Origin: Candidatus Schekmanbacteria bacterium
Lineage (GTDB): Bacteria > Schekmanbacteria > GWA2-38-11 > J061
Reading direction: 5' to 3'
Length of the DNA: 64,000 nucleotides
Assembly (NCBI GenBank): GCA_016219965.1
Contig: JACRJM010000003.1
Coordinates: forward strand, 504,299 to 568,298
Every line of letters starts with the position of its first letter. Position 1 is the first letter of the stretch. The notes beneath the pieces were generated by a model that did no database searches, was not told the DNA's origin, and was given only the letters and a program-made list of their open reading frames with translations. Of this stretch, positions 2,754-45,388 are shown piece by piece. Made by a program: the position numbers and the translations under genes.

Positions 2754-3974
2754 TTAGAAAGACTGACAGGGAGTTAAATTATCTCTCATTTTGATGCTGA
2801 AAAGAGCTTCATCTATTGGCCCGTAAAAATAACTTGGAGTGATTCCAGCTCCTTTTAGATGAAATTCAGCTTTACCTCCTGCCATTGAACAGATTAGGTA
2901 TGAGCAATCGCTTATCATCATTATGATACGATTGAGGGCATCTCCTTCTTCAACGCAGGTTTTGCGGCCGCTGCAGAATTTTTTCACATTCCTTTTTTCT
3001 ATGAAAATAAAGCCGCTCTCATTTAACTCATAGATGTAGAAGGTTTCTGCCCTCCCGAAATGTTCATCTACCAATTTTCCTGTCCTGCTTGCAACAGCCA
3101 CTCTGTCGTTTTCCGGGATTGCTTCCGGTGAATATCTTTTGCCCGGTCTTTTATTATAGTTAGTATCATCTAAAAATCCTATCTCGTCTGCCCTGCAAAG
3201 GCGGCAGTGCTTCATCAGCGGGACTTCATTTTGAAGTGATGCGATAAAGGCTTTATAAAATTCCTGCGACGGGATGGGATGGTTTTCAAAGGCAGAGCCT
3301 TTAACATTTATCATGGGAATTATATTTATTAAACTTACCCCCTTGTTTTTCATTTCATTTGCCAATTCTTTTAGATGACTGTCGTTTATGCCGGGAATAA
3401 GTACGGAATTTATTTTTACATTTATTTTTCTTTCCAGAAGAAGCCTTATCCCTTCAATCTGGTTTTTTAGGAGAATGCGGGAGGCTTCTTCTCCTTCATA
3501 TACGGCTCCGTTAAAAGTCACTTGTTGATAAATCTTTGATGCTGTAGCTGTGTCAGTGGCATTTACGGTGACGGTAATAAAGTTCACCCCGCATTTAACT
3601 ATATCATTTATATATAAGGGAATGTTGAGGCCATTTGTGGCCATGCAATAGTTCAGATGCGGATAATGATTTCTTATTAATGATAGAGTCTTAAAAGTTA
3701 AATCAGGATTTGCAAGAGCGTCTCCGGGGCCCGCGATACCTACGGTAGTCAATTTGGGGATTTTTTTTACGACTTCTTTTACTTTTTCCAAAGCCTCAAC
3801 CGGAGATAATACGTTGCTAGTCACGCCGGGCCTGCTTTCATTGGCGCAGTCGAAGAGACGGTTACAGTAGTTGCACTGTATGTTGCATAGAGGCGCTACC
3901 GGAAGGTGCATCCTTGCGGAACTGCCTGCTGCATCAACATTGAAGCAAGGATGAAAAATAGGGACAGCGCCCAT
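2754..3974 (-). CDS. nifB: NifB-type radical SAM protein with C-terminal NifX-like domain, 5' end rewritten by a REP repeat
   Basis: This 406-residue protein matches NifB, the radical-SAM enzyme that builds the 8Fe-9S-C precursor of the nitrogenase cofactor. The radical SAM cluster motif CNIQCNYC sits near residue 32, followed by NRLFDCANESRPGVTS. The later CRLCRADEIG motif near 257 is also characteristic. The C-terminal 110 residues form a NifX/NafY-like cofactor domain (VAVASRTGKLVDEHFGRAETF). NifB normally has about 10-40 residues before HPCFN. Here those are replaced by MGAVPIF, encoded entirely by ATG plus the 19-bp REP repeat. The start overlaps the upstream RAYT stop as TAATG, so translation may now depend on re-initiation. 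No other nif gene is in the window, so a role in nitrogen fixation is not shown. Confidence 0.88.
   Translation of the reverse strand: MGAVPIFHPCFNVDAAGSSARMHLPVAPLCNIQCNYCNRLFDCANESRPGVTSNVLSPVEALEKVKEVVKKIPKLTTVGIAGPGDALANPDLTFKTLSLIRNHYPHLNYCMATNGLNIPLYINDIVKCGVNFITVTVNATDTATASKIYQQVTFNGAVYEGEEASRILLKNQIEGIRLLLERKINVKINSVLIPGINDSHLKELANEMKNKGVSLINIIPMINVKGSAFENHPIPSQEFYKAFIASLQNEVPLMKHCRLCRADEIGFLDDTNYNKRPGKRYSPEAIPENDRVAVASRTGKLVDEHFGRAETFYIYELNESGFIFIEKRNVKKFCSGRKTCVEEGDALNRIIMMISDCSYLICSMAGGKAEFHLKGAGITPSYFYGPIDEALFSIKMRDNLTPCQSF
3954..3972 (-). repeat. REP-a copy 1 (left end of RAYT1)
   Basis: The minus-strand reading is GGGCGCTGTCCCTATTTTT, identical over 19 bases to the copies at 4687 and 6738. 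The core GGGCGCTGTCCC is an imperfect palindrome. It encodes residues 2-7 (GAVPIF) of the annotated nifB product. Confidence 0.9.
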
Positions 3975-4642
3975 TATTTTTCTTTCTTCCGAGGTCTTCC
4001 ATGAGGCAAGGCATTTAACTGCCGGGCAAATTTCTCCTCCAGCTTTCCAATAAATGACTCATCTCCGCATGGGCGCCCGGTCATGGAACACTTTTTGATG
4101 CGCTCTATCATAGTTATGTTTTCTTTCTCCAGCAAATAGCTTTTCCAGTTGCTTATCTCTGTCAGCAGGTAACATTTCCCTGAGACAATACCTTCCTGTA
4201 GGCCGTCTATATGCTCCTTTGCGCTTGACCATTTGTAGTCTTCCGCAGTTTTAACTATCCCTGCGCGGAGGGGATTGTTTTCTACGTATCGAACAGCCGT
4301 ATACACGTGCGCTTCATCAAGGATTGCGGAATAAAATCTTCCCTGCCAGAGATGACCGTTCGACTTTCTGCGTTTGTTTATATGCTGTGCATATCTCATA
4401 TGAAGTGTATTGAAGGTGCGGGCAAGGGAATCTTCTTTCCCTGGAACGCAGACAAAATGAACATGATTATTCATAAGACAATATGCCCAGATCTCAATGT
4501 CATACTGCTTACTGTATTCCCTGAGCCATTTCAAATAAAGCAGGTAGTCATCCTCAGTTTCGAATACTGTTTGACGGTAATTACCGCGCTGAGTGACATG
4601 GTGCGGATATCCACTGGCTACGACTCTTGCTATTCTTGGCAT
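3974..4642 (-). CDS. REP-associated tyrosine transposase (RAYT, IS200-like HUH family)
   Basis: This about 222-residue single-domain protein belongs to the Y1/HUH RAYT family, which cuts and moves REP hairpins as single strands. It has the N-terminal PRIARVVASGYPHHVTQRGN, the metal-binding HUH motif in MNNHVHFV, and the likely catalytic Tyr region TAVRYVENNPLRAGI, with NGHLWQGRF between them. The start is placed at ATG 4642 because the second RAYT in this window begins at the same residue; an upstream TTG would add six residues. The stop TAA overlaps the nifB ATG. The gene lies wholly inside its own inverted REP pair. Confidence 0.9.
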   Translation of the reverse strand: MPRIARVVASGYPHHVTQRGNYRQTVFETEDDYLLYLKWLREYSKQYDIEIWAYCLMNNHVHFVCVPGKEDSLARTFNTLHMRYAQHINKRRKSNGHLWQGRFYSAILDEAHVYTAVRYVENNPLRAGIVKTAEDYKWSSAKEHIDGLQEGIVSGKCYLLTEISNWKSYLLEKENITMIERIKKCSMTGRPCGDESFIGKLEEKFARQLNALPHGRPRKKEK

Positions 4643-4686
4643 ATTAATGACAGTTAACAAGAGATGATGTTTTTGTCAATAAAAAC

Positions 4687-15801: not shown

Positions 15802-16479
15802 GTGGAGCCGAAGATAAAAGAAAAGATTCCGCTTAAAGGCATACGCGCCCGTATTGCAACCAAGATGACGCAGAGCTGGACAAATGCCCCGAGGGTCGCA
15901 GAGATTGTCCTTATCAACATGGAAAATGCCAAAAAAGCAGCCGATGCGCAAAAGCAGGATGGTGTTACGATAAATGACCTTATAATAAAATCCTGTGCCT
16001 TAGCACTTAAAAAACAGCCCCTTATGAACTCCGCTATAATCGGCGAGGAAATCCTTGTGTTCGAAAGTATAAATGTTGCCTTTGCGGTAGCACTTGATGA
16101 AGGGCTTATAACACCGGTAATACCTGACGCAGATGCACTTGACCTTAAAAGCCTTGCGGCAAAGCGTGAAGATGTTGCAAACCGAGTACGTGCAGGGCAA
16201 AGGTCTGCTGACATATTAACAGGCGGCACCTTTACCATTACAAATCTCGGTGGATTTGGTATTGAAATATTTACTCCAATCATAAATTACCCGCAGTGCG
16301 GGATATTAGGTGTCGGCAAGGCATTACAGCGCCCTGTTGTGGAAGACGGCAAAGTAGTTCCACAGCTTAACATGTATGCCTCCCTTGTTTTCGACCACAG
16401 AATAATAGACGGAGCACCGGCAGCAAAGTTTTTAAATGAAATAAAGACAGGGCTTGAGAAGCCTGAGACACTAATTTAA
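15802..16479 (+). CDS. Stand-alone catalytic domain of a 2-oxoacid dehydrogenase E2-type acyltransferase
   Basis: This 225-residue protein is only the CoA-dependent acyltransferase core of E2 (dihydrolipoamide acyltransferase), of the chloramphenicol-acetyltransferase fold. It begins at the inner-core motif IPLKGIRARIATKMTQSW. It includes GGTFTITNLGGFGIEIFTPIINYPQCGILGVG and ends with the active-site DHRIIDGAPAAKFL (His and Asp present). There is no lipoyl domain and no E1/E3-binding domain, whereas normal E2 has 400 or more residues. No E1 or E3 genes are nearby. The GTG start has GAGGAGG seven bases upstream, so the short length is genuine. It opens the operon with an SDR, an acyl-CoA ligase and the AOR-Hdr genes. 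It may move an acyl group to or from CoA (inference). Confidence 0.85.
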   Translation: MEPKIKEKIPLKGIRARIATKMTQSWTNAPRVAEIVLINMENAKKAADAQKQDGVTINDLIIKSCALALKKQPLMNSAIIGEEILVFESINVAFAVALDEGLITPVIPDADALDLKSLAAKREDVANRVRAGQRSADILTGGTFTITNLGGFGIEIFTPIINYPQCGILGVGKALQRPVVEDGKVVPQLNMYASLVFDHRIIDGAPAAKFLNEIKTGLEKPETLI

Positions 16480-16507
16480 TTGGGGATAATTGAGTCATAA
16501 AAATAGA

Positions 16508-16561
16508 ACCACAGAACAGAGATTATAGAACAGGAGTGATTCCTTCTGTGTACTCTGTGGT
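16508..16561. repeat. ACCACAGA/TCTGTGGT palindromic repeat, copy 1
   Basis: ACCACAGA at 16508-16515 and TCTGTGGT at 16554-16561 are inverted ends of a 54-bp intergenic unit. A related copy lies at 17385. Such elements are dispersed in many anaerobe genomes. Confidence 0.65.
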
Positions 16562-16584
16562 TAATTCTTTTAAAGGGTGTTTCT

Positions 16585-17352
16585 ATGAGCAAAGAGATTT
16601 TTGATCTTGAAGGTAAGGTTGCAATAGTAACAGGCGCAGGGAAGGGTATCGGCAGGGCGCTGTCAATAGGCCTGGCAGAGTTTGGCTGCGATCTTGTCCT
16701 TGTTGCGCGCACTCTCTCTGACCTTGAGAGCGTTGCGGCAGAGATTGAAAAGAAAGGTAAGAGGGCACTTGCCTGTCCCACTGATGTCACAAATGAAGAC
16801 CAGGTAAATGACATGGTAAAAAAAGCCGTGGAAAAATTCGGCAAGATAGACATCCTCGTAAATAACTCAGGTATAAGCGGAGACAAGCCGGTTCTCAAGA
16901 TGGAAGCAAGCTACTGGGACTGGATAATGTCTGTGAACCTTCGCGGCCCGTTTTTGTGCGCAAAGGCGGCAGGTGCACAGATGGCAAAACAGAAAAGCGG
17001 TAAGGTCGTAAATGTTTCTTCGATAACTTTCCAGATGGCAATACCCAACATGACATCATACAGCGCCTCAAAAGCAGGACTCGTTCAGTTTACCAAAGTG
17101 CTCGCCCTTGAATGGGTAAAATATAATATACAGGTAAACGCTGTGTGTCCCGGCTATTTCAGGACACCCATGAATGAAGCGTTCTTTTCAAGCGAGGCAG
17201 GGAAAAAAGTCATTGAGCAGACGCTTCCTATGAAAAGACTTGGCGAGCCTGAAGAGATTCTTGGCGCTGTCGTGTTCTTTGCATCAAAGGCTTCTGATTT
17301 TACGACAGGGGCAGTCCTTGTCGTTGACGGCGGTCAGATCTTAGGTAAATAG
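16585..17352 (+). CDS. Short-chain dehydrogenase/reductase (FabG-like)
   Basis: A 255-residue classical SDR that interconverts a hydroxyl and a keto group with NAD(P)H. Visible are the cofactor motif TGAGKGIG near residue 17, NNSG near 95, the catalytic Ser in VVNVSSITFQ, the YSASK Tyr-Lys pair, and the PGYFRTPM loop. ARTL after the second strand suggests NADPH preference. It lies between two palindromic repeats inside the E2-AOR operon, after the acyltransferase and before an acyl-CoA ligase. A beta-oxidation-like step on an acyl-CoA is a reasonable guess, but no substrate signature is readable. Confidence 0.92.
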   Translation: MSKEIFDLEGKVAIVTGAGKGIGRALSIGLAEFGCDLVLVARTLSDLESVAAEIEKKGKRALACPTDVTNEDQVNDMVKKAVEKFGKIDILVNNSGISGDKPVLKMEASYWDWIMSVNLRGPFLCAKAAGAQMAKQKSGKVVNVSSITFQMAIPNMTSYSASKAGLVQFTKVLALEWVKYNIQVNAVCPGYFRTPMNEAFFSSEAGKKVIEQTLPMKRLGEPEEILGAVVFFASKASDFTTGAVLVVDGGQILGK

Positions 17353-17384
17353 TTTTTTTGATGAGGTTATTGAAAAAAGTTTTT

Positions 17385-17428
17385 ACCACAGAGTTCACAG
17401 AGAAAAAATACTCTGAGTCCTCTGTGGT
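17385..17428. repeat. ACCACAGAG/CTCTGTGGT palindromic repeat, copy 2
   Basis: ACCACAGAG at 17385-17393 and CTCTGTGGT at 17420-17428 form a 9-bp perfect inverted repeat in the SDR-ligase gap, related to the copy at 16508. Confidence 0.7.
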
Positions 17429-17486
17429 TGAAATCATTTTGTAAAATGTTCTAATTGTAAAAAATAACAAATAGCGGAGGCAGGAG

Positions 17487-19073
17487 ATGAGCATCATTAT
17501 CGGGAGAAATAAGAACCTCAGAAGGCTTCTCGAATTTCAGGCAGAGGTGCGTCCAAACCAGATTTTCATCATATTCATAGATAAAGATGAAAATGTAGAA
17601 ACCTTGACTTACAGGGAATTCAACCTAAAGGTAAACCAGTTTGCCAATTATCTTCTGGGCATCGGGATAAAGAAGGGGGATTTCGTTACATGCAACCTTC
17701 CTAATTCCACGGGTTTCTGCCTTACATGGTTTGCCACATCCAAGATAGGCGCCATAATGATCCCGACCAATACAATGTCGCGCGCTGATGAGATGCAGTA
17801 TATGCTCGAACATTCCGGTTCAACTACGCTGGTCACAGACCCTGAATTTATGGAGATGATTAACAGCATAAAGCCGCAATGTCCAAAGCTTAGGAATATC
17901 ATCCTTTACCGCGCAGAAGAAGCGGCACCGGGAACAGTCCTTTTAAACGATATACTGAAGGACCAGCCTGCGGAGCTGAAAAAAATAGTTGATGTCGGTC
18001 CCATGGATGTTTCCAACATGCTCTATACATCAGGGACAACAGCAAGACCGAAGGGAGTTCTTTTAACTCACGGCAACTCACTCTGGATAGGGGAGAGCAT
18101 GGCATGCGAGCAGAAGCTTACGCACGAAGACAGGCACATCTGCGTGCTTCCTCTCTTTCATGTCAATGCCCAGTACATCTCGTTTATGCCGACCATAACA
18201 GCCGGGGCAAGCATAATAGTATGCGAACGTTTCAGCGCATCAAGGTATTACAGGCATGTCCGCGAATACGGGGCCACAATCACAAGCTTAGTCGCTACCA
18301 ACGTAAGGCAGCTCTTAGCCCAGCCGCGCCATCCCCACGATGCAGAAAACAAAATGAGAAGGATATGTTTTGCCATTGCCATCACAGATGAACAGTGGGA
18401 TGAGTTTGAGGCAAGATTTAACTGCACGCTTCATGACCTTTACGGGCTCACTGAAACGCTCGCTCCCTGCACGTTCACTGCAATGCATGCAAAGAGGAAA
18501 AGAGGCTCTGTCGGGCTTCCTGCCTTTGGCATTGAGATAAAGATAGTTGATGATGAAAGAAAAGAAATTCCCATCGGCGAGGTTGGCGAGATTGCGGTTT
18601 GCGGAACCCCGGGGATTCAGCTCATGAAGGGCTATTATAAGAACCCGGAAGCCACGGCCGCAGTTCTGGATGAGAACAACTGGTTTTATACCGGCGATTT
18701 TGGGAAGATGGACGACGAAGGGTATGTCTATTTCGTTGACAGGAAGAAAGATGTAATAAAACGGGCAGGCGAGAACATTGCCGCATGCGAGGTCGAAAGG
18801 GTGCTGAACGAACACCCTGCAATATCTGAAACAGCCGTTATTGGTGTCCCTGATGAAATGAGGGATGAAGCGGTAAAGGCATTTATAATTTTAAAAGAAG
18901 GGCACAACCCTACTGAAGAGGAGCTCAAGGCGTACTGCGGAGAAAAACTTGCGAAATTCAAGATACCGCAGTACATAGAAGTTGTTGCTTCCTTCCCAAA
19001 GACTTCTATTGGGAAGATCCAGAAAAATATTCTTAAAAAAGCAGAGCTTGAAAAGTTAAACAGAAAGGGTTAA
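17487..19073 (+). CDS. AMP-forming acyl-CoA ligase (CaiC-like)
   Basis: A 528-residue member of the ANL superfamily that activates a carboxylic acid to its CoA thioester with ATP. Visible are the P-loop-like LYTSGTTARPKGVLLTHGN near 180, YGLTETL near 315, the hinge YTGDFGKMDDEGYVYFVDRKKDVIKRAGENI near 405, and the catalytic Lys in FPKTSIGKIQKNIL near the C-terminus. Overall sequence style resembles crotonobetaine/carnitine-CoA ligases. GGAGGCAGGAG precedes ATG. It sits between the SDR and the ferredoxin/HdrA genes of the same operon, so it is the likely entry step that supplies an acyl-CoA. The acid cannot be identified from sequence. Confidence 0.92.
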   Translation: MSIIIGRNKNLRRLLEFQAEVRPNQIFIIFIDKDENVETLTYREFNLKVNQFANYLLGIGIKKGDFVTCNLPNSTGFCLTWFATSKIGAIMIPTNTMSRADEMQYMLEHSGSTTLVTDPEFMEMINSIKPQCPKLRNIILYRAEEAAPGTVLLNDILKDQPAELKKIVDVGPMDVSNMLYTSGTTARPKGVLLTHGNSLWIGESMACEQKLTHEDRHICVLPLFHVNAQYISFMPTITAGASIIVCERFSASRYYRHVREYGATITSLVATNVRQLLAQPRHPHDAENKMRRICFAIAITDEQWDEFEARFNCTLHDLYGLTETLAPCTFTAMHAKRKRGSVGLPAFGIEIKIVDDERKEIPIGEVGEIAVCGTPGIQLMKGYYKNPEATAAVLDENNWFYTGDFGKMDDEGYVYFVDRKKDVIKRAGENIAACEVERVLNEHPAISETAVIGVPDEMRDEAVKAFIILKEGHNPTEEELKAYCGEKLAKFKIPQYIEVVASFPKTSIGKIQKNILKKAELEKLNRKG

Positions 19074-19085
19074 TTAGTCATCCGT

Positions 19086-19709
19086 ATGGATTATAAATTT
19101 GACCTTCGCGTCCACCGCGTAGAAAAGAAAAATCTTGGCAACAGGGAAGAGCTTGCAAGACTGCTCTCTTCATTGAAGTCAAAAAAAGGAGACTCAACCT
19201 GGCCGGAGAAGTTTATAAAGGCAGGGGAAAATCTTTATTTTGGCGGTAAAGTTGAGATTGACACTGACAAGTGTATCGCCTGCGGAGCTTGCGCCGAGAT
19301 ATGTCCCACAGGAGCCATTGAGGTTGTTGACAGGGATGGGAAGCGTTTCATCTCTCACAACCTTCAAATCTGCGTTGGCTGCCGCAAATGTGAGGGAAGC
19401 TGCGATGACAAGGCGATAAAAGCTGTTCCCGGATTAGAGCTTAAAGCTTTTTTTGAAGGAAGGTCCGAACCCAAAAAAGAAGCAGACCTCATAGCATGCA
19501 AGCAGTGCGGAAGACCAGTAGGTCCTGCCCAGGCAATAGAGAAAATAAAGAAAACCCTTGAAAAAGAATCACACCTCCACAGCGAGCTTGACTTTTGCCA
19601 GAAGTGCCGCAAATGGCGTGCCGCGTACGAGGCTGTGCCGCGTCTTTCCATGCTTCTTGGCAGGACGCATTCTGATATAACCGGAAATGAAAGCAGTGAC
19701 CCGAAATGA
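19086..19709 (+). CDS. HycF/HyfH-like ferredoxin with two [4Fe-4S] motifs and a C-terminal Cys4 site
   Basis: A 207-residue electron carrier. After a 55-residue leader it has two cluster motifs, CIACGACAEICPTGA and CVGCRKCEGSCDDKA; the second has SC instead of CP at the end. The C-terminal part has CKQCGRP and CQKCRKW, a probable zinc ribbon like that in hydrogenase-linked ferredoxins of the HycF/HyfH type. The stop overlaps the next start (ATGA), so it is translationally coupled to the HdrA-MvhD protein and probably passes electrons to it. Confidence 0.82.
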   Translation: MDYKFDLRVHRVEKKNLGNREELARLLSSLKSKKGDSTWPEKFIKAGENLYFGGKVEIDTDKCIACGACAEICPTGAIEVVDRDGKRFISHNLQICVGCRKCEGSCDDKAIKAVPGLELKAFFEGRSEPKKEADLIACKQCGRPVGPAQAIEKIKKTLEKESHLHSELDFCQKCRKWRAAYEAVPRLSMLLGRTHSDITGNESSDPK

Positions 19710-22129
19710 AATCAGTAAAAAGACAAGAGAAACAGGAAACGGAAAATAAAGCCGGAGCAGCTCTGCCTCAGAATGCTGTTTTTCTGTGCAGTTGCGCCGG
19801 AGAAATAGATAAAGTCATAAACCCGGAACGGGTTCTTAAAGCGCTCGAATCTTCCGGCAAATTCGCGAATATATACCGCCATGATTCCCTTTGCCAGCCC
19901 AACGGGATCCGCGCCATAGCAGACAGTGTAAAAGATAGTGGCACGGAAAAATTCCTCATTGCCGCATGTTCACCGCAGAGCATCGGAAAAATATTCAAAG
20001 AAGGGCTTGAGCGCGCAGGCATAGATACAAGCCGTTATTCCATAGTTAACATAAGGGAAGGCTGTGCCTGGCCTCATGCGAATGAGCCTGAGCTTGCAAC
20101 TGAAAAATCGATTTCAATGATAAAGACAGCATGGATGGGGCTTAAATCATCCGTAGAAAAAGACACCGAAGTAAGAGGGATAAATGAGAGCGCCATTGTA
20201 ATAGGCGGCGGTCCTGCCGGAATATCAGCAGCCTTTGAACTTGCAGAGTCGGGAATAAAGACTACGATAATCGAGAAAAAGCATGTACTTGGCGGATTTG
20301 CAAACAAGCTCGGCATTGTGGCGCCTACGAATGACTGTGCCCTTTGTACCGCATTTCTGGATACCGGCAACCTCGAGGTTTGTAGAAAATGTATTTACAG
20401 GAGCCGCATAGATTCACAGTCTAATCTGAAAATAGTCACAAAGGGAAAAGTCACAGGGATAAGCGGAGAGCCGGGGAATTTCACCGTAAAAGTTGCAAAA
20501 GAGCCGCGTTATGTTGATGTGGATAAATGTATTCTCTGCGGAAAGTGCGAAGATGTCTGCCCTGTGACAGGAATAAAAAGCAAACCCTATTCAACGGTCA
20601 CAAGGAAAGCTGCATTTCTTCCTTATCCGCAGGCAATCCCCAGAGCCTATGTGATAGACCGCGAAGCCTGCAAAGAAGGATGTACTGAATGTGAAAAAAT
20701 ATGTCCCACCAGGGCGATAGACCTTAATGAACAAAAAACAGAGCAAACCCTGAACGCAGGGGCTGTTGTCATTGCAACGGGAATAAAAGAATATAAGCCA
20801 AATGAGATAACGGAACTCGGCTACGGCAGGTACCCTAATGTCATAACACAGCATCAGCTCGGCAATATGTTAAATCCCGAAGGACACACGGCTGGTGAGG
20901 TAATAAGACCCTCGGACGGCAGGAAGCCAAAAAACATCGTCATGATGCAGTGCGTCGGTTCAAGGGATAAATATCATCCCTATTGTTCAGAAGTGTGCTG
21001 TCTATTTGCCACAAAACATGCGATCCTTTTGAGGGAGCGGGCAGGCGCTGAAGTCACCATTTGTTATATAGATATCAGGACACCCGGATTTTTTGAGAAA
21101 TATTATGTCGAGGCGCGTGACAAATGGGTAAACTTCATAAAGGGAAGGCCTTCCAGCATTGAAGAAGACCCGGATACGAAAAATCTTTATGTCACGGTTG
21201 AAGACATGGCCATTAATTCTGATGTTGTGCTGAATGCAGACCTCATGGTGCTTTCAAGCGCACTTATACCTTCTGAAGATACCGAAGAGCTGTCAAAAGT
21301 TTCAGGGATAGAGCTTAATGAATACGGGTTCATAAAAGAGTATTACGGAAAGAACAGGGCTAACGAGACATCCTTAAAAGGAATATATGTTGCCGGTTCT
21401 GCAACAGGTCCAAAGAATATTCCTCTTTCAGTATCACAGGGAAGCGCTGCCGCGGCAAAGGCAATATCCCAGATAAAGAGGTTAAAGGCTAAGAAAGAGA
21501 TCCTTTGTGCTTCCATAGACGAAGAGCTTTGCATCAAATGCGGGATATGCGTGAAGATCTGTCCGGTAAAAGCAATCGAAACCGAGGAATCTCTGACCGC
21601 TCTTGATATACTCGAGACCCCCGAAGTAAACAGGATAAAATGCCTTAACTGCGGGCAATGCTCTGCATATTGTCCGACAGGCGCGATCTGGGCGGGAAAT
21701 TACAGCGGCGAAAATTTCTTCCCGCAGATCGAAGAGATACTTGCCGGCAATACGATAAAACCAAAGATTCTCACTTTCCTCTGCCTTGAATGTGCCTATG
21801 CTGCTGTTGACCTTGCAGGGTTGAAAAAAATATCTTATCCAGCTAATATCATTCCTCTCGGAGTGCCCTGTGCAGGGAAGGTTTCACTTGTTGATATACT
21901 TAAAGCCTTTGAGTGCGGGGCAGAAGGGGTGTTGCTTGGAGGGTGCGTTACATGCCATTTTAAAAACGGCAAGGATTTCATGGTCTCTCAGGCGGTTTTT
22001 GGAAAAGAACTTTTAGCGAGCATAGGAATAGAGCCTGAGCGGTTGGATTACTTTACGGCTGCAATCTCCGACCATGCAAAATTTCTTGACATAGCAAGAG
22101 GAATGACTCAAAAGTTGAAAAAATTATGA
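19706..22129 (+). CDS. HdrA-MvhD fusion flavoprotein
   Basis: An 807-residue fusion of the flavin electron-bifurcating subunit HdrA with MvhD. In order: HdrA N-terminal domain (VFLCSCAGEIDKVI, about 25-150); FAD Rossmann motif VIGGGPAGISA near 170; the HdrA signature APTNDCALC near 210, here followed by CRKC; a ferredoxin pair (CILCGKCEDVCPVTG and CKEGCTECEKICPTRA); the second FAD half with QCVGSRDKYHPYCSEVCC; a C-terminal ferredoxin pair (CIKCGICVKICPVKA, CLNCGQCSAYCPTGA); then MvhD from about 690 (FLCLECAYAAVDLAG, VPCAGKVSLVDIL, GCVTCHFKNG). In methanogens HdrA-MvhD links hydrogenase or formate dehydrogenase to HdrBC. Here it directly precedes a ferredoxin and AOR, so it is the probable electron gate of that enzyme. 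Confidence 0.88.
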   Translation: MKSVKRQEKQETENKAGAALPQNAVFLCSCAGEIDKVINPERVLKALESSGKFANIYRHDSLCQPNGIRAIADSVKDSGTEKFLIAACSPQSIGKIFKEGLERAGIDTSRYSIVNIREGCAWPHANEPELATEKSISMIKTAWMGLKSSVEKDTEVRGINESAIVIGGGPAGISAAFELAESGIKTTIIEKKHVLGGFANKLGIVAPTNDCALCTAFLDTGNLEVCRKCIYRSRIDSQSNLKIVTKGKVTGISGEPGNFTVKVAKEPRYVDVDKCILCGKCEDVCPVTGIKSKPYSTVTRKAAFLPYPQAIPRAYVIDREACKEGCTECEKICPTRAIDLNEQKTEQTLNAGAVVIATGIKEYKPNEITELGYGRYPNVITQHQLGNMLNPEGHTAGEVIRPSDGRKPKNIVMMQCVGSRDKYHPYCSEVCCLFATKHAILLRERAGAEVTICYIDIRTPGFFEKYYVEARDKWVNFIKGRPSSIEEDPDTKNLYVTVEDMAINSDVVLNADLMVLSSALIPSEDTEELSKVSGIELNEYGFIKEYYGKNRANETSLKGIYVAGSATGPKNIPLSVSQGSAAAAKAISQIKRLKAKKEILCASIDEELCIKCGICVKICPVKAIETEESLTALDILETPEVNRIKCLNCGQCSAYCPTGAIWAGNYSGENFFPQIEEILAGNTIKPKILTFLCLECAYAAVDLAGLKKISYPANIIPLGVPCAGKVSLVDILKAFECGAEGVLLGGCVTCHFKNGKDFMVSQAVFGKELLASIGIEPERLDYFTAAISDHAKFLDIARGMTQKLKKL

Positions 22130-22282
22130 CACAATGTTCCATGTTTATTTTAAGGTTTATTTTAAAGCTCGAAATATGGAAGGGGGTGGGAGTAATTTAA
22201 GAAGTTTTGACAATGCAATTTAAGACTAAAATACGTGGACAGTTTTTAGTATCAGGATAGTTAAAATCGAAGGGGGAGACAT

Positions 22283-22768
22283 ATGGAACATCAACGTTTT
22301 ATAATGATTAACCCGGATAAGTGTACCGGTTGCAGGACCTGCGAAATGGCATGTTCTCTTTACAATGAGAAAGAGTGCAGCCCCTCGCTTTCGAGGATTC
22401 GCGTGGTTAGAAACGAAGCAATCGGCGACAGTTTCCCGGTAGGTTGTGCCCTTTGCTCAAAGCCGGTCTGTGTTGAAGTTTGCCCTACAGGCGCAAACTC
22501 AATAGACCCGGTAATGGGCACCGGTATCATCAACGAAGAGATATGCGTAGGATGCAAGGCATGCGTAAGAGCCTGCCCGTTTGGAGCTGCCGGTATAAGC
22601 TATAGGACCGGCAAGGCTTTCAAGTGCAATCTCTGTAACGGCGACCCGCAGTGCGTAAAACACTGTCCGTCAAACTGCCTTGAATATGCACCTGTTGAGC
22701 TTACAGTAAGGCACCGCCGCAGGGCGCTTGCTGATGATGTAATCTCTAAGTTGAAAGGGGAGGGCTGA
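22283..22768 (+). CDS. Four-cluster ferredoxin, small subunit of the AOR-type enzyme (AorA/BamC-like)
   Basis: This 161-residue polyferredoxin of the HycB/CooF/AorA class has four [4Fe-4S] motifs: CTGCRTCEMACS, CALCSKPVCVEVCPTGA, CVGCKACVRACPFGA and CNLCNGDPQCVKHCPSNC. It has a strong ribosome site (GGGGGAGACAT-ATG) and lies three bases before the AOR gene. Small proteins of this kind are the electron-transfer partners of W-containing AOR in Aromatoleum (AorA) and of BamB in class II benzoyl-CoA reductase (BamC). It would wire the tungsten subunit to the HdrA-MvhD protein. Confidence 0.87.
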   Translation: MEHQRFIMINPDKCTGCRTCEMACSLYNEKECSPSLSRIRVVRNEAIGDSFPVGCALCSKPVCVEVCPTGANSIDPVMGTGIINEEICVGCKACVRACPFGAAGISYRTGKAFKCNLCNGDPQCVKHCPSNCLEYAPVELTVRHRRRALADDVISKLKGEG

Positions 22769-22771
22769 TAC

Positions 22772-24748
22772 ATGTCAATAAATGGATGGAGAGGTAAAAG
22801 GATTCGTTTCAACCTTACAAAAGGGACCTGGGATGTAGAAGAGACTCCTTATGAATACAGGAGAAAATGGCTGGGCGGCAGGGGATATAACTCTGAAGTG
22901 CTTTACAATAATGTCCCTGTTGATGTTGACCCGCTTTCACCTGAAAACGTAGTATGTCTTGGCGTTGGTCCGCTTTCAGGAACATTCGGACCTTCAACAG
23001 GCCGAGTGACAGTAACCGCAAAGTCACCTTTGACCGGCGGGTTTGGTGATTCCAATATGGGCGGTCACTGGGGCGCAGAGTTAAAATATGCAGGCTACGA
23101 GCAGATAATATTGACCGGCAAGGCTCCAAAGCCGTCATACATCTGGATAGACGATGACAAGATAGAAATAAGGGATGGCTCTCACATCTGGGGGAAATTC
23201 CCTCGTGATGCTGATGCCATAATTAAAGAAGAGCTTGGCGACAAAGATATCCATATCGTTACAATAGGACCAGCCGGAGAAAATCTTGTACGTTTTGCAT
23301 GCACCTTCAATGACTGTTACAGGGCGGCAGGAAGAACAGGACACGGCGCGGTAATAGGCTCAAAGAACATAAAGGCAATCGCTGTGCGCGGAACAAGCGG
23401 AGTAAAGATTGCAAAGCCTGAAGAATATTACAAGATATGCAGTGACTGGCGCGAGACAATGCGTACAGATCCGATGGCACAGGGGTTGTTCAACTTCGGC
23501 AGTCTCATCCTCATCATGCCCTGCAACTATGAGATGGGCTGGTTCCCGTGGAAGAACCTTAAATACGGATATCATCCGGATGCAAGGAACATATCCGGAG
23601 AGGTATGGGCAAAGAAACACTTAAGGCACAAGGAAGGTTGTTTCTCCTGCGCAATCTGCTGCGGAATAGTTTCCGAAGTAAGAGAAGGAAAATATGCCGG
23701 CGACTACACAGGCGGACCGGAATACGAGGCAGCGGTTCCGACAGGACCGAGGGTCGGTATCATTGATTCTGAAACAACATTGCACAATGCCATGCTTACA
23801 AACAACTACGGCATGGATGCAATCGAAGCCGGAGCTTCAATAAGCTGGGCTATGGAATGCTGGGAACACGGGTTGCTCACATCAAAAGACACCGGCGGCA
23901 TAGATCTTACATGGGGTAATCAGGAAGCCGTTGAACAGCTCCTCCATGACATGACATACAGGAAAGGCTTCGGCGACATACTTGCCGACGGTCCATGGAG
24001 AGCTTCAATGAAGCTGGGTCTTGGCGAGGAATACCTCACCGTGACAAGAGGAATGAGTCTTCCCGGCGATGACCCAAGGGGACTTGGTTTCGGTTACGGA
24101 TTGAGCTTTGCAGTTGGAACAAGGGGCGGCTGCGACCACCTTCGTTCACTCTGCTGCCTTGAGCTCTCAGGCTACCTCTATCCGGGACTCAACATGAAGA
24201 TAGTAGGGACAGAGGAATGTTCGAAGCCTCTTACCACAATAGGCAAACCCAAGATGGTTTACTGGGAAGAAAACCAGAAGGCCTTTGTTGACTGCCTGCA
24301 GGTATGCTGCTTCAACACCCACTGGTCATATGGGTGCAGAAATGAGCACCTTATCCCAATGATAAATGCAGTTACGGGTCTTGATTTTACAGAAGAAGAG
24401 CTGATGACCATAGGCGAAAGGATATACAACCTTGAGCGCGCATACTGGTCAAAGATGCTTAGCGGAAAACATGAGGACACTGTTCCGAAGCGCTTTACCC
24501 ATGAGCCGATGCCTGAAAACCCGGCAGCAAGCTCTGGCAAAGTTCTTCCTTTAGACGAGATGCTTCCGGAATATTACAGGCTGCGCCAGTATGAGCCTGA
24601 GACAGGATTCCCGGGAGACAAGAGGTTGAGAGAACTCGGCCTCGAGGATATCGCAGAAGAACTGAAACCTTACAGGAAGAAATACATAGATCTTCATGAA
24701 GGGAAAAAGGGAGCGAAACCTCAGCAGCAGCCAAAAAAAGGTAAATAA
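22772..24748 (+). CDS. Tungsten-type aldehyde:ferredoxin oxidoreductase large subunit (AorB/BamB-like)
   Basis: A 658-residue AOR-family enzyme binding a bis-pterin tungsten (or molybdenum) cofactor and one [4Fe-4S] cluster. The N-terminal AOR domain includes RGYNSEVLY, GPLSGTFGPSTGRVTVTAKSPLTG and FGDSNMGGHWGAELKYAGY. The cluster Cys motif GCFSCAICCG lies at about 290-297 with the fourth ligand probably C512 or C513 (QVCCFNTHW). Pterin-contact stretches GDDPRGLGFGYGLSFAVGTRGGCDH are near 430. Length is slightly above typical AOR and close to BamB. It may oxidise aldehydes, reduce acids, or reduce an aryl-CoA as BamB does; the sequence alone does not separate these. The C-terminus is Lys/Gln-rich. 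It lies three bases after its ferredoxin and upstream of a MoaD-like gene. Confidence 0.93.
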   Translation: MSINGWRGKRIRFNLTKGTWDVEETPYEYRRKWLGGRGYNSEVLYNNVPVDVDPLSPENVVCLGVGPLSGTFGPSTGRVTVTAKSPLTGGFGDSNMGGHWGAELKYAGYEQIILTGKAPKPSYIWIDDDKIEIRDGSHIWGKFPRDADAIIKEELGDKDIHIVTIGPAGENLVRFACTFNDCYRAAGRTGHGAVIGSKNIKAIAVRGTSGVKIAKPEEYYKICSDWRETMRTDPMAQGLFNFGSLILIMPCNYEMGWFPWKNLKYGYHPDARNISGEVWAKKHLRHKEGCFSCAICCGIVSEVREGKYAGDYTGGPEYEAAVPTGPRVGIIDSETTLHNAMLTNNYGMDAIEAGASISWAMECWEHGLLTSKDTGGIDLTWGNQEAVEQLLHDMTYRKGFGDILADGPWRASMKLGLGEEYLTVTRGMSLPGDDPRGLGFGYGLSFAVGTRGGCDHLRSLCCLELSGYLYPGLNMKIVGTEECSKPLTTIGKPKMVYWEENQKAFVDCLQVCCFNTHWSYGCRNEHLIPMINAVTGLDFTEEELMTIGERIYNLERAYWSKMLSGKHEDTVPKRFTHEPMPENPAASSGKVLPLDEMLPEYYRLRQYEPETGFPGDKRLRELGLEDIAEELKPYRKKYIDLHEGKKGAKPQQQPKKGK

Positions 24749-24763
24749 GATATTTACAAATTT

Positions 24764-24804
24764 CCCCTTTCCCCCCTTTGTCATTTATCAAAGGGGGGGT
24801 GGGG
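24764..24804. repeat. Pyrimidine/purine hairpin repeat, copy 1
   Basis: CCCCTTTCCCCCCTTT and AAAGGGGGGGTGGGG form a long stem between the AOR and MoaD-like genes. A related hairpin lies at 39024-39060. Probable dispersed intergenic element. Confidence 0.65.
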
Positions 24805-24828
24805 ATTTTTAATCAGCTCAAAGAACCA

Positions 24829-25161
24829 ATGATAAAAATCAAATGCCGTTATTATAATCTTACCCTTGATGTTACGAAGAAGATTGATGAGGAAATAGTG
24901 CTTCCTGACGGTTCAACTGTTAAACAGGCAGTTGATTTTCTCATTAAAAAATATGGCTACAAATTCCAGCAAAGGGCAATTCTCACAATGGATTCCATGC
25001 AGGGTACCGTACAAAGGGCCAATGTATATCTAAACAACCACCCTGCTGACTATGAGTACGATTATCCAGACAAACTTGAAACAAAACTAAAAAACGGCGA
25101 CACCATCTCATTCGGCTCCCTCATTGGCGGTGGACAGAAAAGGGGGACGCAACCCTTTTAA
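24829..25161 (+). CDS. MoaD/ThiS-like sulfur carrier with REP-derived C-terminal extension
   Basis: About 110 residues of the beta-grasp MoaD/ThiS fold (IKIKCRYYNLTLDVTKKI, LPDGSTVKQAVDFLIKKYG, LKNGDTISFGSLIGGG). MoaD-type proteins carry sulfur for molybdopterin and must end in Gly-Gly. Here the glycines (SLIGGG) are followed by QKRGTQPF, of which KRGTQPF is coded by the REP repeat at 25138-25159. The native C-terminus has probably been overwritten. The start ATG 24829 begins at the first beta strand; an upstream TTG inside the hairpin is less likely. AOR operons often encode a MoaD-like protein for the tungstopterin cofactor. The protein may need proteolytic trimming or may be inactive. Confidence 0.82.
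   Translation: MIKIKCRYYNLTLDVTKKIDEEIVLPDGSTVKQAVDFLIKKYGYKFQQRAILTMDSMQGTVQRANVYLNNHPADYEYDYPDKLETKLKNGDTISFGSLIGGGQKRGTQPF
25138..25159 (-). repeat. REP-b left copy
   Basis: It codes the last seven residues of the MoaD-like protein and provides part of its stop codon (25159-25161). The RAYT2 stop (25158-25160) overlaps on the other strand. Confidence 0.85.
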
Positions 25162-25835
25162 TCTTCATCATTTTGCACCTTTTTGGGGCGGCCCGGTGGA
25201 CGGAAGGTTAGAGTACGTTTTAATACTTTTTCCAACCCAGAAATAAAAGTTAAATCCCCACAGGGTAAACCTTTTTGGGTGTTCAGTTTCAAAATATCTG
25301 TATCTTCCTGTTTATCAGATTCGCGTAACCATTCAGACCAGTTTTCTATTATTCCAGATGGAGGGAAATCAGATGACATAACATTGTCTTTCTTTATTCC
25401 GCAATGACTCGCAGCGCTTGACCATTTATAATCCTCCGCAAGTTTTGTAATATGGGAACGAACTGGATTGCGCTCTACATAACGTACTGCTGCCCATAGA
25501 TAACTTTCATCAAGAGCAGACGAAAAAAATCTACCTTGCCATAAATGACCTGACCATCCTTTTCTCTTGTTAATGTATTGTGCATAGCGCATATGCAAAG
25601 GGTGCAATACATTCTCCAATGAATTTCTGTTCATGGGAACGACTACCAGATGGACATGGTTAGTCATCAGGCAGTATGCCCATATCTTTAATCCGTATTT
25701 TTCTGAGTATTCCCGGAGCCACTCCAAATATCTCTTGCGGCATTCATCAGTAAAAAAAACATCTTCCCTTCTATTCCCTCGTTGCGTTACATGATAGGGA
25801 ACTCCTTCAAATACAGCTCGTGAAATCCTTGGCAT
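25158..25835 (-). CDS. REP-associated tyrosine transposase (RAYT), second copy
   Basis: A 225-residue HUH transposase homologous along its length to the RAYT at 3974-4642, but diverged. It has MPRISRAVFEGVPYHVTQRGN, the HUH motif in MTNHVHLVVV, SGHLWQGRF and the Tyr region AAVRYVERNPVRSHI, followed by DYKWSSAASH. The upstream stretch TTGTCAATAAAAA also occurs before RAYT1, so the two share a promoter-side layout. It ends in PPGRPKK, a basic tail also seen in RAYT1 (HGRPRKK). It is bracketed by the REP-b repeats. Confidence 0.9.
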   Translation of the reverse strand: MPRISRAVFEGVPYHVTQRGNRREDVFFTDECRKRYLEWLREYSEKYGLKIWAYCLMTNHVHLVVVPMNRNSLENVLHPLHMRYAQYINKRKGWSGHLWQGRFFSSALDESYLWAAVRYVERNPVRSHITKLAEDYKWSSAASHCGIKKDNVMSSDFPPSGIIENWSEWLRESDKQEDTDILKLNTQKGLPCGDLTFISGLEKVLKRTLTFRPPGRPKKVQNDED

Positions 25836-36236: not shown

Positions 36237-36776
36237 ATGGATATAAAGTTTGATGAGCTTGATCCGGGTTTTAAATATGAAGTGGCAAAAAGGCCCGGGG
36301 GTGACAAGATAAAATACTGTTATTCCTGCGGCACATGCACCGCAAGCTGTCCGGTTCGTAAAATAGACGAGAGATTCAATCCGAGACAGATAATAAGGAT
36401 GGCGCTTCTCGGGATGAAAGAGAAGGTTTACAAAAGCGAATTCATATGGCTTTGCACTGCCTGCTACAGCTGTCAGGAGAAATGTCCGCAGGATGTTAAG
36501 ATCACTGATTTAATGACGGTGTTTAAAAACCTTGCCACTGAGGCAGGTTATGTTCATCCGTCTTATCTTCAGATCGGGGATTTCATAAAATCAAGCGGAA
36601 GGGTATATGTGCTTGAAGATTTTGACAATAAAAAAAGGGAAAAGGCAGGATTGCCCGCACTTCCCCTAAAGATTGACGAGGTTGAGAAAGTTTTTGAGAT
36701 TACCGGGTTCAGCAAGTTGATACCGGCAAAACAGGAAGCCGCGCCGGAAGAGGTTAAAACAGGAGATACACAGTGA
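36237..36776 (+). CDS. HdrC-like ferredoxin subunit (Hdr supercluster, C1)
   Basis: This 179-residue protein has the two [4Fe-4S] motifs of heterodisulfide reductase subunit C: CYSCGTCTASCPV and CTACYSCQEKCPQ, with the spacing of HdrC. HdrC carries electrons between HdrA and HdrB. The C-terminal 60 residues are a Glu/Lys-rich extension. AGCGGAGAGCC precedes ATG. Its stop overlaps the HdrB start (GTGA), so the two subunits are coupled. It is the first gene of the plus-strand Hdr supercluster. Confidence 0.9.
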   Translation: MDIKFDELDPGFKYEVAKRPGGDKIKYCYSCGTCTASCPVRKIDERFNPRQIIRMALLGMKEKVYKSEFIWLCTACYSCQEKCPQDVKITDLMTVFKNLATEAGYVHPSYLQIGDFIKSSGRVYVLEDFDNKKREKAGLPALPLKIDEVEKVFEITGFSKLIPAKQEAAPEEVKTGDTQ

Positions 36777-37657
36777 AGGCAGCGCTATTTCTTGGATGTA
36801 CGATCCCTGCAAGGGTAAGGCAGTATGAAATCTCAACGCGCCGCGTTGCACGCGAGCTGGGCATTGAATTTGTAGATATACCGGAATTCTCATGCTGCGG
36901 ATTTCCGCTCAAGGCTGCAAGCTTTGATACGGCAATGCTCCTTGCAGCAAGGAATCTAAGCCTTGTCGAAGAAAAAGGGCTTACCAATATTTGTTCAATA
37001 TGCAGCGCCTGTACTGAGAACCTCACCGAATTTTCAAAGGAGCTAAACCACGACGAGGAGCTTAGAAACCGGGTCAATGAAAAGTTAAAACCGATAGGCA
37101 GGTCATATAAAGGAACAGTTACAGTAAAGCATATAGGCAGGATTTTGAAGGAAGACATTGGCGTAGAGAAGATAAAGGGAACAGTTGTTAAGAGTTTAAA
37201 CAACCTCAAGGTTACGGCGCATTTCGGGTGCCATTATGTGAGGCCTTCTGCGATATACGGGAAATTTGATGACCCTGAGCTTCCAACATCTTTAAAGGAT
37301 TTGATCAGGGCAACAGGAGCGGAGTATGTCGAGCACAGCAATGAGATGCAGTGCTGCGGCGGAGGTATTCTTGCCGTGGCAGAGAAGGTCTCCATCGCTA
37401 TGTCGAAAGACAAGCTTGACCGCATGAAAAAGGCAGGGGCAGAGGTAATATGCCTTATATGTCCATTCTGCGGTGTCATGTATGACGCCAATCAGCGCTC
37501 CATCGAAGAGCAGTACCAGACGGAGTACAAAATCCCTGTGCTCTTCTATCCTCAGCTTCTCGGTCTTGCCATGGGTATTCCTTCAAAAGAGCTTGGGCTT
37601 AACCTCAATGTTGTTAAGACCAAGGATCTTCTCGAGAGATTAGGCGCAGACGCTTAA
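36773..37657 (+). CDS. HdrB-like catalytic subunit (B1)
   Basis: A 294-residue heterodisulfide reductase subunit B with two CCG domains, which in known HdrB bind non-cubane [4Fe-4S] clusters that cleave a disulfide. The first has FLGCTIPAR, FSCCGFP and CSICSACTENL; the second has FGCHYVRPSA, MQCCGGG and CLICPFCGVMYD. The start is GTG with AGGAG seven bases upstream. In bacteria without coenzyme M the acceptor is unknown; candidates are another disulfide, a quinone-linked or an acyl-CoA partner. Confidence 0.9.
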   Translation: MKAALFLGCTIPARVRQYEISTRRVARELGIEFVDIPEFSCCGFPLKAASFDTAMLLAARNLSLVEEKGLTNICSICSACTENLTEFSKELNHDEELRNRVNEKLKPIGRSYKGTVTVKHIGRILKEDIGVEKIKGTVVKSLNNLKVTAHFGCHYVRPSAIYGKFDDPELPTSLKDLIRATGAEYVEHSNEMQCCGGGILAVAEKVSIAMSKDKLDRMKKAGAEVICLICPFCGVMYDANQRSIEEQYQTEYKIPVLFYPQLLGLAMGIPSKELGLNLNVVKTKDLLERLGADA

Positions 37658-37681
37658 AGGCAGGAAGGGGAAAATCCATTC

Positions 37682-38929
37682 GTGAAATCTTTTGTAGCCA
37701 TAATAGGCGGAGGGATTGCAGGCATTTCTGCAGCAAATGAGTTGTCGCGTGAAAAGGTCCCTTTTGCACTTATTGAAAAGGAATTCTATGCAGGAGGGAA
37801 AAGCTCGCTCCTTTGCTGCAAAGCCTCCGAGAAATGCAACCGCTGCTCTGCCTGTGTCGCAGACCACAGGATAAAGGATTTTTTTTCAGGGAGAGAATCT
37901 CCTCTTCATGTAGGTTCATATTTAACCGGCATTGAAAAGGATGAAAAAGGTTTCAATATAAATTTTAAAAAATCTGCTCGAAGCGTAATAGAAGAAAAAT
38001 GCACTTCCTGCGGGAAATGCGAAGAGGCTTGTCCGGTTGCCGGGAAAGCCATCAAATTGCCGCCTCCTGGAACATTTCCAAAGACAGCTTACATAGATAA
38101 ATCTCTCTGCCTTCGCTCCAAAGGGGAAAATTGTGAGATTTGCGCAAAGGTCTGTCCTGAGAATGCTGTTGATTACAGTCAAAACCCTGTTAATGAGAAA
38201 ATTTACGCCTCATCTGTTATTCTTGCCGTAGGATTTGAGCATTTTAATCCGCGCGATAAATCATCATTCCACTATGGCATTTTTAAAAATGTAATAAGCG
38301 GGCAGGAGCTTGAAGAGGCTTTAAGGATAAAGGGGAAAGTGGTCAGACCCTCTGACGGCAAAGTCCCTTCTTCGATTGCCTATATACAGTGTGCCGGAAG
38401 CCGGGACCCTAAGAATACAAATCCTTACTGCTCTCAGGTCTGCTGCCTTTATGCTATGCGGACTGCATTACATATAAAAGAAGAATCTCCGGACACGAAG
38501 ATAAAGATTTTCTATATGGATATCCAGAGCGACTGCAAGAAAGAAATGGAGTTTTACAATGATTGCCTCGCAAGGATAGAAATGGAAAGGTCAATGCCGG
38601 GAAACATCGAAGAGCTGGATAGCGGAGGCATACTCGTTACATACGAGTCAATAGAAAAGGGCAAAAACATCGCCGAAGAATTTGACATGGTGGTTCTTTC
38701 AACAGGAATTGCGGCGACACCGGCGAATAAAATGGTAACTCAAATGTTCGGACTTAAAACTGACAGCTCTGGCTTTATCGAGTCCGGCGATGAGAGCGAG
38801 AGAACCAAAACCAAAGACCGCAGGATATTTATTGCAGGATGCTGCCAGTCGCCAAAAAACATAAGCTCAAGCATGGCGCAGGGGGTAGCTGCTGCAAGGA
38901 ATGCAATAGAGATAGGGTATGGGGAATAA
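37682..38929 (+). CDS. Short HdrA-like FAD/iron-sulfur protein (A1)
   Basis: A 415-residue HdrA core without the N-terminal Cys domain. FAD motif FVAIIGGGIAGISAANEL is at the start. The HdrA Cys region is a variant (LLCCKASEKCNRCSACV) in place of the usual TNDCALC. A ferredoxin insert follows (CTSCGKCEEACPVAGKA and CEICAKVCPENA), then the second FAD half with QCAGSRDPKNTNPYCSQVCCLYA and a C-terminal CCQSPKNISSSMAQG. There is no C-terminal ferredoxin. The start GTG follows AGGAAGGGG. It directly follows HdrB1, so HdrC-HdrB-HdrA form one unit. Confidence 0.87.
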   Translation: MKSFVAIIGGGIAGISAANELSREKVPFALIEKEFYAGGKSSLLCCKASEKCNRCSACVADHRIKDFFSGRESPLHVGSYLTGIEKDEKGFNINFKKSARSVIEEKCTSCGKCEEACPVAGKAIKLPPPGTFPKTAYIDKSLCLRSKGENCEICAKVCPENAVDYSQNPVNEKIYASSVILAVGFEHFNPRDKSSFHYGIFKNVISGQELEEALRIKGKVVRPSDGKVPSSIAYIQCAGSRDPKNTNPYCSQVCCLYAMRTALHIKEESPDTKIKIFYMDIQSDCKKEMEFYNDCLARIEMERSMPGNIEELDSGGILVTYESIEKGKNIAEEFDMVVLSTGIAATPANKMVTQMFGLKTDSSGFIESGDESERTKTKDRRIFIAGCCQSPKNISSSMAQGVAAARNAIEIGYGE

Positions 38930-38930
38930 T

Positions 38931-38996
38931 TAAGGTCTGGCAGTCCTGCTCTGGCACTAAACAGCAGGTGCCTTCCGCAGGAACTACCAGACCTTA
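38931..38996. repeat. Hdr-cluster hairpin repeat, copy A
   Basis: TAAGGTCTGG pairs with CCAGACCTTA at the ends of a 66-bp unit. Its inner loop is nearly identical to that of copy B at 40785 (CTGGCACTAAACAGCAGGTG). It lies two bases after the HdrA1 stop. Confidence 0.8.
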
Positions 38997-39023
38997 AAAA
39001 AAATGTTAAACAGGTGCAATGCT

Positions 39024-39060
39024 TCTCTTTCCCCTTTTCATAAAGGGGGATAGAGGGGGA
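39024..39060. repeat. Pyrimidine/purine hairpin repeat, copy 2
   Basis: TTTCCCCTTTT and AAAGGGGGATAGAGGGGGA form a hairpin related to 24764-24804. Its GGGGG end may serve as ribosome site for the TTG start at 39069. Confidence 0.6.
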
Positions 39061-39068
39061 TTATTTAA

Positions 39069-40753: not shown

Positions 40754-40784
40754 ATATTTAACATGCTGTTAATATGTGTAGGTC

Positions 40785-40847
40785 AGGCTTGGCTGTTCCT
40801 GCTCTGGCACTAAACAGCAGGTGCCTGCCGCAGGAACAGCCAAGCCT
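40785..40847. repeat. Hdr-cluster hairpin repeat, copy B
   Basis: AGGCTTGGCTGTTCCTGC (40785-40802) is a perfect 18-bp inverse of 40830-40847, with a 27-base loop shared with copy A. It could also act as an attenuator or terminator between D1 and the giant HdrA fusion. Confidence 0.85.
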
Positions 40848-40862
40848 TGCAATGACTACACT

Positions 40863-40892
40863 TTGTCTTTGCGAGCGAAGCGAAGCAATCTC
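40863..40892. repeat. Dispersed repeat of the TGCGAGCGAAGCGAAGCAATCTC type
   Basis: TTTGCGAGCGAAGCGAAG followed by CAATCTC, a sequence type I know as dispersed in many bacterial genomes. A longer relative lies at 45516-45570. Confidence 0.6.
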
Positions 40893-45387: not shown

Positions 45388-45388
45388 A

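Follow-up and report, generated by a model that had tools for sequence, protein, structure and literature searches.

We analysed a 64,000-nt stretch of the genome of a Candidatus Schekmanbacteria bacterium (contig JACRJM010000003.1, positions 504,299 to 568,298; hereafter the window), in which a block of eight genes on the plus strand (15802-25161) encodes a tungsten enzyme of the aldehyde ferredoxin oxidoreductase (AOR) family, WorL, with its ferredoxin subunit, WorS, next to a HdrA-MvhD fusion protein. The pairing of AOR with HdrA-MvhD is fixed inside the phylum and is phylum-specific in comparison with the nearest AOR relatives, and HdrA-MvhD appears to serve an aldehyde oxidoreductase as an electron module specific to the phylum. 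We give slightly better than even chances to the reading that the eight genes are the redox half of a catabolic cluster, in which WorLS would oxidise an aldehyde, an acyl-CoA ligase would activate the acid, and the electrons would exit via HdrA-MvhD.

The genes were compared with their orthologs in genome-bin data from four Schekmanbacteria, each of another genus: the window genome (G000), G001, G002 and G003 (Ca. Schekmanbacteria bacterium GWA2_38_11). The block begins with the catalytic core of a 2-oxoacid dehydrogenase acyltransferase (E2) without a lipoyl domain (15802-16479; PF00198, E = 9e-72), which keeps the HRxxDG motif as HRIIDG and is 60-74% identical to the proteins of the three other Schekmanbacteria. 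An SDR-family dehydrogenase (16585-17352; adh_short_C2, E = 4.5e-67; 69-81% identity in the orthologous clusters) and an AMP-forming acyl-CoA ligase (17487-19073; 79-83%) follow, the latter being CaiC-like, with crotonobetaine/carnitine-CoA ligase as the nearest model and a score under the equivalog cut-off. Next are a HycF/NuoI-like ferredoxin (19086-19709; 46-71%), containing two 4Fe-4S motifs and a C-terminal CxxC...CxxC, invariant in the four orthologs, and the HdrA-MvhD fusion (19706-22129; HdrA2 636 bits, FlpD 110 bits), which has solved HdrA relatives. WorS (22283-22768) contains four 4Fe-4S motifs, with 8c0z_C (AorA of Aromatoleum) and 9mqx_E (WorS of Acetomicrobium) as its best solved relatives, and WorL (22772-24748; AFOR_N+AFOR_C, 374 bits) is the catalytic subunit. 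The last gene encodes a MoaD/ThiS-like protein (24778-25161; ThiS/MoaD matches), WorX-like and probably involved in pterin cofactor maturation, which is AOR-adjacent in G001 and G002 too. The HycF and HdrA-MvhD genes overlap by 4 nt, and 3 nt separate worS from worL. The structure model of HycF was too poor to use (pLDDT 36).

Gene order and strand were identical in all four genomes, with the MoaD gene present in three and the G003 contig stopping after the AOR gene. An identical order in four genera indicates that the linkage is more than chance. The flanking genes differ among the genomes, except that G000 and G001 share a Tll0287-like neighbour, and the linkage has thus been kept while its surroundings reshuffle. 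A preliminary description of this DNA had listed the eight co-directional genes; all were present, with their domains confirmed. The linked set that it had singled out, AOR and WorS with HdrA-MvhD and without Nuo-like subunits, is conserved in all four Schekmanbacteria.

The same description had suggested kinship with the class II benzoyl-CoA reductase (Bam), to be checked by the phylogeny and the pocket of the AOR subunit. A tree built from 115 AOR-family proteins places WorL in a supported clade of 17 members (SH-aLRT 99), with BamB and BamB-like proteins elsewhere. Besides the four Schekmanbacteria, the clade comprises ten proteins whose bins are named Deltaproteobacteria, Thermodesulfobacteriota or Proteobacteria; Peptococcaceae, Desulfobacterales and Methanosarcina contribute one member each. 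When residue criteria for AOR versus BamB (PMC12096430) were applied, the AOR second-shell residues Glu311, Tyr312, Glu313 and His448 were found to be kept as E317, Y318, E319 and H456. The 4Fe-4S ligands C288, C291, C295 and C494 of PfAOR, and Asn93 of its Mg/pterin site, are likewise kept (C290, C293, C297, C512 and N95). Neither WorL nor any clade member shown has Cys at the position of the BamB tungsten ligand Cys322, and WorL has Leu, Cys, Tyr and Trp in place of the BamB Zn-site residues Glu251, His255, Glu257 and His260. Within the solved family, the confidently predicted fold of WorL (pLDDT 91.9) comes closest to 1AOR (TM 0.97 by target length); its worst match is BamB (TM 0.82), which also ranks last by sequence. 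The retained AOR residues, the missing BamB residues and the fold match indicate that WorL, as judged from its sequence and model, belongs to the aldehyde-oxidoreductase type, with a pocket specific to its clade, and is not a benzoyl-CoA reductase. Kinship with BamB was rejected on residues, tree position and fold search alike.

These results bear on the idea that the block encodes a compact analogue of class II benzoyl-CoA reductase, reducing an acyl- or aryl-CoA ester made by the ligase. Its gene types do resemble those of BamBCDEFGHI from Geobacter metallireducens, in which an AOR-family subunit, a polyferredoxin and HdrA- and MvhD-like parts likewise occur together in a CoA ligase context. 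However, WorL carries the acid-base residues of AOR (Glu313/His448) and lacks Cys322 and the Zn-site residues of BamB, BamB belongs to another part of the tree, and neither half of the larger cluster described below contains genes resembling BamD (HdrBC-like) or BamGHI (NuoEFG-like). We therefore regard a CoA reductase as scarcely credible. As separate observations on the family, the 3.58 Mb window genome holds 12 AOR-family genes, scattered over several clades of the tree, and a Chloroflexi contig (L112:12980-17892) carries three BamB-like AOR-family genes in tandem, with an N-terminal part 52-56% identical to BamB.

Comparison of the surroundings revealed that the eight genes are the second half of a larger cluster, and not a complete acid-activating operon. 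Upstream of the block and on the same strand, G003 and G002 encode the E1 alpha and E1 beta subunits, a lipoyl protein of 79 aa and a protein of an unknown family. Further upstream, G003 also encodes an enoyl-CoA hydratase (ECH), an acyl-CoA dehydrogenase (ACAD), two additional small proteins, a nitrilase-family protein and an alcohol dehydrogenase (ADH), all contiguous with the block; the G002 contig stops short of the ECH/ACAD/nitrilase/ADH part. In the window genome, the first half stands apart on the minus strand (C3:498557-506904), with ~13 kb between it and the E2 gene, and in G001 it lies on another contig than the eight genes. Positions 1-2606 of the window are the end of this first half, and encode on the minus strand a protein of unknown family truncated by the window start (1-555; homolog of L203:16284-16853, no Pfam match), a nitrilase-family carbon-nitrogen hydrolase (596-1540; CN_hydrolase on the corresponding gene in L203, 86% identity to the G003 gene) and a zinc ADH resembling 2,3-butanediol dehydrogenase (1557-2606; ADH domains, 75% identity to the G003 gene, and ~42-43% to annotated best matches named '2,3-butanediol dehydrogenase'). 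The E2 lacks a lipoyl domain because this domain is encoded as the separate 79-aa gene in the other half; an odd acyltransferase, which had been considered, was dropped for this reason.

A protein of unknown family encoded in the cluster belongs to a conserved family with the motif EDDEKFTF...PCGSG.RL.R...YC.HC...DPC (L203:10557-11381, L190:13606-14271, L219:7833-8600), for which no match was found in Pfam or PDB. Besides the Schekmanbacteria cluster, a similar cluster of Rhodococcus jostii RHA1 encodes a member of this family; the contexts of the homologs in RHA1 and G035 vary.

From its gene content, the whole cluster (ADH, E1/lipoyl/E2, ACAD, ECH, SDR, ligase) looks like an oxidative breakdown pathway. 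E1 alpha and beta fall within the AcoAB-type superclade, apart from the pyruvate and branched-chain 2-oxoacid dehydrogenases (support 100/99), and the lipoyl protein is nearest to AcoC. With AcoABC acetoin dehydrogenase clusters, the Schekmanbacteria cluster shares the superclade of its E1, the nearest lipoyl protein and a 2,3-butanediol dehydrogenase-like ADH, but its E1 is nearest to one outside the acetoin-operon group, its E2 and lipoyl domain are split and E3 lies outside the cluster. A firm assignment to acetoin was favoured at first by the 47-50% identity of E1 alpha to acetoin-operon proteins, and was weakened by a larger E1 tree. The cluster on the RHA1 plasmid pRHL3 (L219) likewise contains ACAD, E1 alpha and beta, E2, ADH, the unknown-family protein, SDR and AMP ligase, but differs in having lpdA and in being without AOR, WorS, HycF and HdrA-MvhD, and its proteins are only 27-55% identical.

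The presence of an AOR inside an apparently oxidative pathway is most simply explained if an aldehyde intermediate is converted to an acid that the ligase activates. WorL with WorS would most likely run in the oxidative direction on an aldehyde substrate made by the pathway, and the AMP ligase would convert the resulting acid to acyl-CoA. The aldehyde may arise by alcohol oxidation, catalysed by the ADH, or by acyloin cleavage, catalysed by the AcoAB-superclade E1/lipoyl/E2 complex. Low-potential electrons would flow from tungsten through the clusters of WorL and those of WorS to HdrA-MvhD, in what we infer to be a physical complex, with HycF as a bridge or outlet towards a putative acceptor. 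HdrA-MvhD would then fill the place held by WorN (NAD) or WorABC (NAD plus ferredoxin) in other tungsten oxidoreductases (WORs). Tungsten enzymes oxidising acetaldehyde have a precedent in the anaerobe Pelobacter, a user of both ethanol and acetoin (PMC4275255).

The same enzymes could in principle operate in reverse, with HdrA-MvhD bifurcating and feeding the AOR very low-potential electrons, with which it would reduce a free acid to an aldehyde. The output of low-potential electrons by HdrA bifurcation is established for HdrABC-MvhAGD. AORs are reversible, and acid reduction by AOR is established for C. autoethanogenum (PMC12727526). However, the other genes of the cluster read as oxidative (ACAD, ECH, E1/E2), a ligase that consumes the acid would compete with its reduction, and a high-potential acceptor module (HdrBC) is absent from the cluster, which leads us to consider acid reduction unlikely. 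Low-potential reduction of an acid or acyl-CoA, as envisaged in the preliminary description, has lost probability with a cluster that reads oxidative, though reverse operation had been allowed for there.

HdrA-MvhD keeps the FAD domain and the 4Fe-4S motifs of solved HdrAs, followed by the MvhD domain, and in this order of domains, FAD and cluster motifs it agrees with HdrA2B2C2 and bacterial Hdr complexes. It differs from the HdrA2B2C2 type in its lower HdrA2 score (636 bits versus a cut-off of 1100), in having no HdrBC in the cluster, and in two sequence features. An insertion after the PTNDCxxC motif of the FAD domain holds an extra CxxC (C226, C229), and the MvhD part has a shortened cysteine loop, GGCxTCHFKNG. 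Both are fully conserved across the four orthologs, and none of the other HdrAs compared has them.

The extra dithiol adjoins the FAD domain, and could indicate that HdrA-MvhD acts in place of E3 as a pathway-wide hub, reoxidising the separate dihydrolipoyl protein and merging or splitting at the FAD its higher-potential electrons and the very low-potential electrons from WorLS. In sulfur oxidation, Hdr-like complexes are known to function together with lipoate-binding proteins. The cluster holds a lipoyl protein and E2 but not E3, while the similar RHA1 set has lpdA. Each of the four genomes, however, encodes an E3 above cut-off elsewhere, and the cluster has no HdrB-type disulfide site. We judge such a hub to be very improbable; if true, it would constitute a new electron-bifurcating or confurcating architecture.

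The distribution of the pairing outside the phylum was examined using named relatives gathered by scanning one collection for two short peptide patterns, by which rare linkages elsewhere may be missed. The nearest AOR relatives outside the phylum are 52-64% identical to WorL. Some members of the clade have WorS-WorL without an electron module in the flanks seen. In contrast, NuoE-, NuoF- and WorA-like genes come after worS, worL, moaD and thiF in a member from Peptococcaceae (L080, 9510-16158), an order that resembles class IV; the WorABC genes of class IV bifurcating WORs are absent from the clusters of all four Schekmanbacteria. This Nuo-like set within the same AOR clade suggests that the electron module is exchangeable. 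In a survey of 386 genomes for HdrA-MvhD, with 1.5 kb inspected on each side, no AOR was found beside the best matches outside the phylum.

Among the lineages searched, the only case of an AOR/HdrA-MvhD partnership beyond Schekmanbacteria is a looser one in a termite-gut Eubacteriaceae metagenome-assembled genome (L111:10007-17888), where the AOR and HdrA2-MvhD genes stand in one row, with genes for a ferredoxin, a small protein, a GltD-like protein and another ferredoxin between them. This AOR belongs to a different clade, and the neighbourhood is a separate one. In two relatives, L075 (12686-15967) and L078, genes for an ACAD and EtfBA, with a ferredoxin domain in EtfA, were observed downstream of the AOR on the same strand. 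We found no paper in the open-licence literature that names both Schekmanbacteria and aldehyde ferredoxin oxidoreductase.

Several observations weigh against the reading of WorLS and HdrA-MvhD as one aldehyde-oxidising system. The HdrA-MvhD and WorS genes are separated by a gap of 116-208 nt in all four Schekmanbacteria, so that a single transcript is presumptive; promoter-like signals (23 versus 15.2 expected) and terminator-like signals (12 versus 10.7 expected) were near chance and uninformative. Neither half of the cluster contains an HdrB/HdrC (CCG-domain) gene, and HdrBC is the usual high-potential partner of HdrA. The nearest relative of the E1 is an ACAD/ECH-linked E1 of Azospirillum, and not the acetoin-operon group. 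In the pocket of WorL, Tyr427 and Tyr452 of AOR, both conserved in characterised AORs, are replaced by Asp433 and Leu460; Asp at the former position is common to all 17 members of the clade, and one characterised enzyme has a His there (PMC12096430). Finally, no HdrA-MvhD was seen in the available flanks of the 14 same-clade AOR loci outside Schekmanbacteria, flanks that are short for several of them. The preliminary description had named such a lack of conservation in relatives as a refuting result, and the outcome is divided, with no HdrA-MvhD in the available flanks of the 52-64% identical relatives, yet a fixed neighbour inside the phylum. Of the acid-activating operon that it proposed, the eight conserved genes stand, as half of a larger cluster.

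The gap upstream of worS, and the clade relatives with WorS-WorL and no electron module in view, would also fit another arrangement, in which WorLS reduces soluble ferredoxin and HdrA-MvhD with HycF serves another step of the pathway. By gene content, WorL and the four-cluster WorS correspond to a class II WOR (WorL plus WorS, ferredoxin-linked). The two parts have moreover diverged at very unlike rates, with 54-71% identity across orthologs for HdrA-MvhD and 84-91% for both WorL and WorS. On the other hand, no other obvious partner of HdrA-MvhD is found among the cluster genes, and the order HycF-HdrA-MvhD-WorS-WorL is invariant in the four genera. We consider it unlikely that the two are mere neighbours.

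A 2026 classification distributes >4,000 tungsten oxidoreductases over five classes distinguished by electron module, with benzoyl-CoA reductase as the single case for which HdrA is mentioned (PMC13328260). AorABC of Aromatoleum aromaticum (class III WOR, 8C0Z) likewise combines an AOR large subunit, with the AOR-type catalytic Glu/His, and a four-cluster ferredoxin. It differs from the Schekmanbacteria set in having an NAD-linked flavin subunit instead of HdrA-MvhD, in the presence of Tyr427, and in belonging to another AOR clade. WorLSABC of Acetomicrobium mobile (AmWOR1, class IV WOR, 9MQX) has WorL and WorS homologs alongside a multi-cluster flavin electron module, but this is the NuoEFG-like WorABC, to which HdrA-MvhD with HycF is unrelated in fold family; any bifurcation in the Schekmanbacteria set would be presumptive.

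With neither WorABC nor HdrBC present, the conserved combination of WorLS, HycF and HdrA-MvhD would give aldehyde-type WORs a further electron module. The module looks exchangeable, since a single AOR clade includes four members with HdrA-MvhD, one whose set is NuoE/NuoF-like, and others in which no module is in view. The favoured reading of aldehyde oxidation with electron exit via HdrA-MvhD also offers a testable metabolic role for an uncultured phylum, and for an AOR clade marked by the change of Tyr427 to Asp.

The window has several other features. Between the two cluster halves lie genes, recognised from their sequences only, for a radical-SAM protein resembling NifB (2754-3974, minus strand) and a Y1/IS200-like transposase (3974-4660, minus strand). 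A second Y1 transposase gene, IS200-like and recognised by Pfam, flanks the eight-gene block (25158-25835, minus strand), and the two transposases are possible agents of the splitting of the cluster in the window genome. An open frame of 2908 aa (50893-59619, plus strand) gave no NCBIfam match. A second Hdr cluster is present on the plus strand (36237-47510), its HdrB- and HdrC-like genes starting 11 kb downstream of the block. It contains HdrC- and HdrB-like genes (36237-37657), a stand-alone MvhD (45597-46076) and a second pair of HdrC- and HdrB-like genes (46003-47510), and also encodes two HdrA-like flavoproteins and a 1490-aa protein in which GltD-like and HdrA-like parts are joined.

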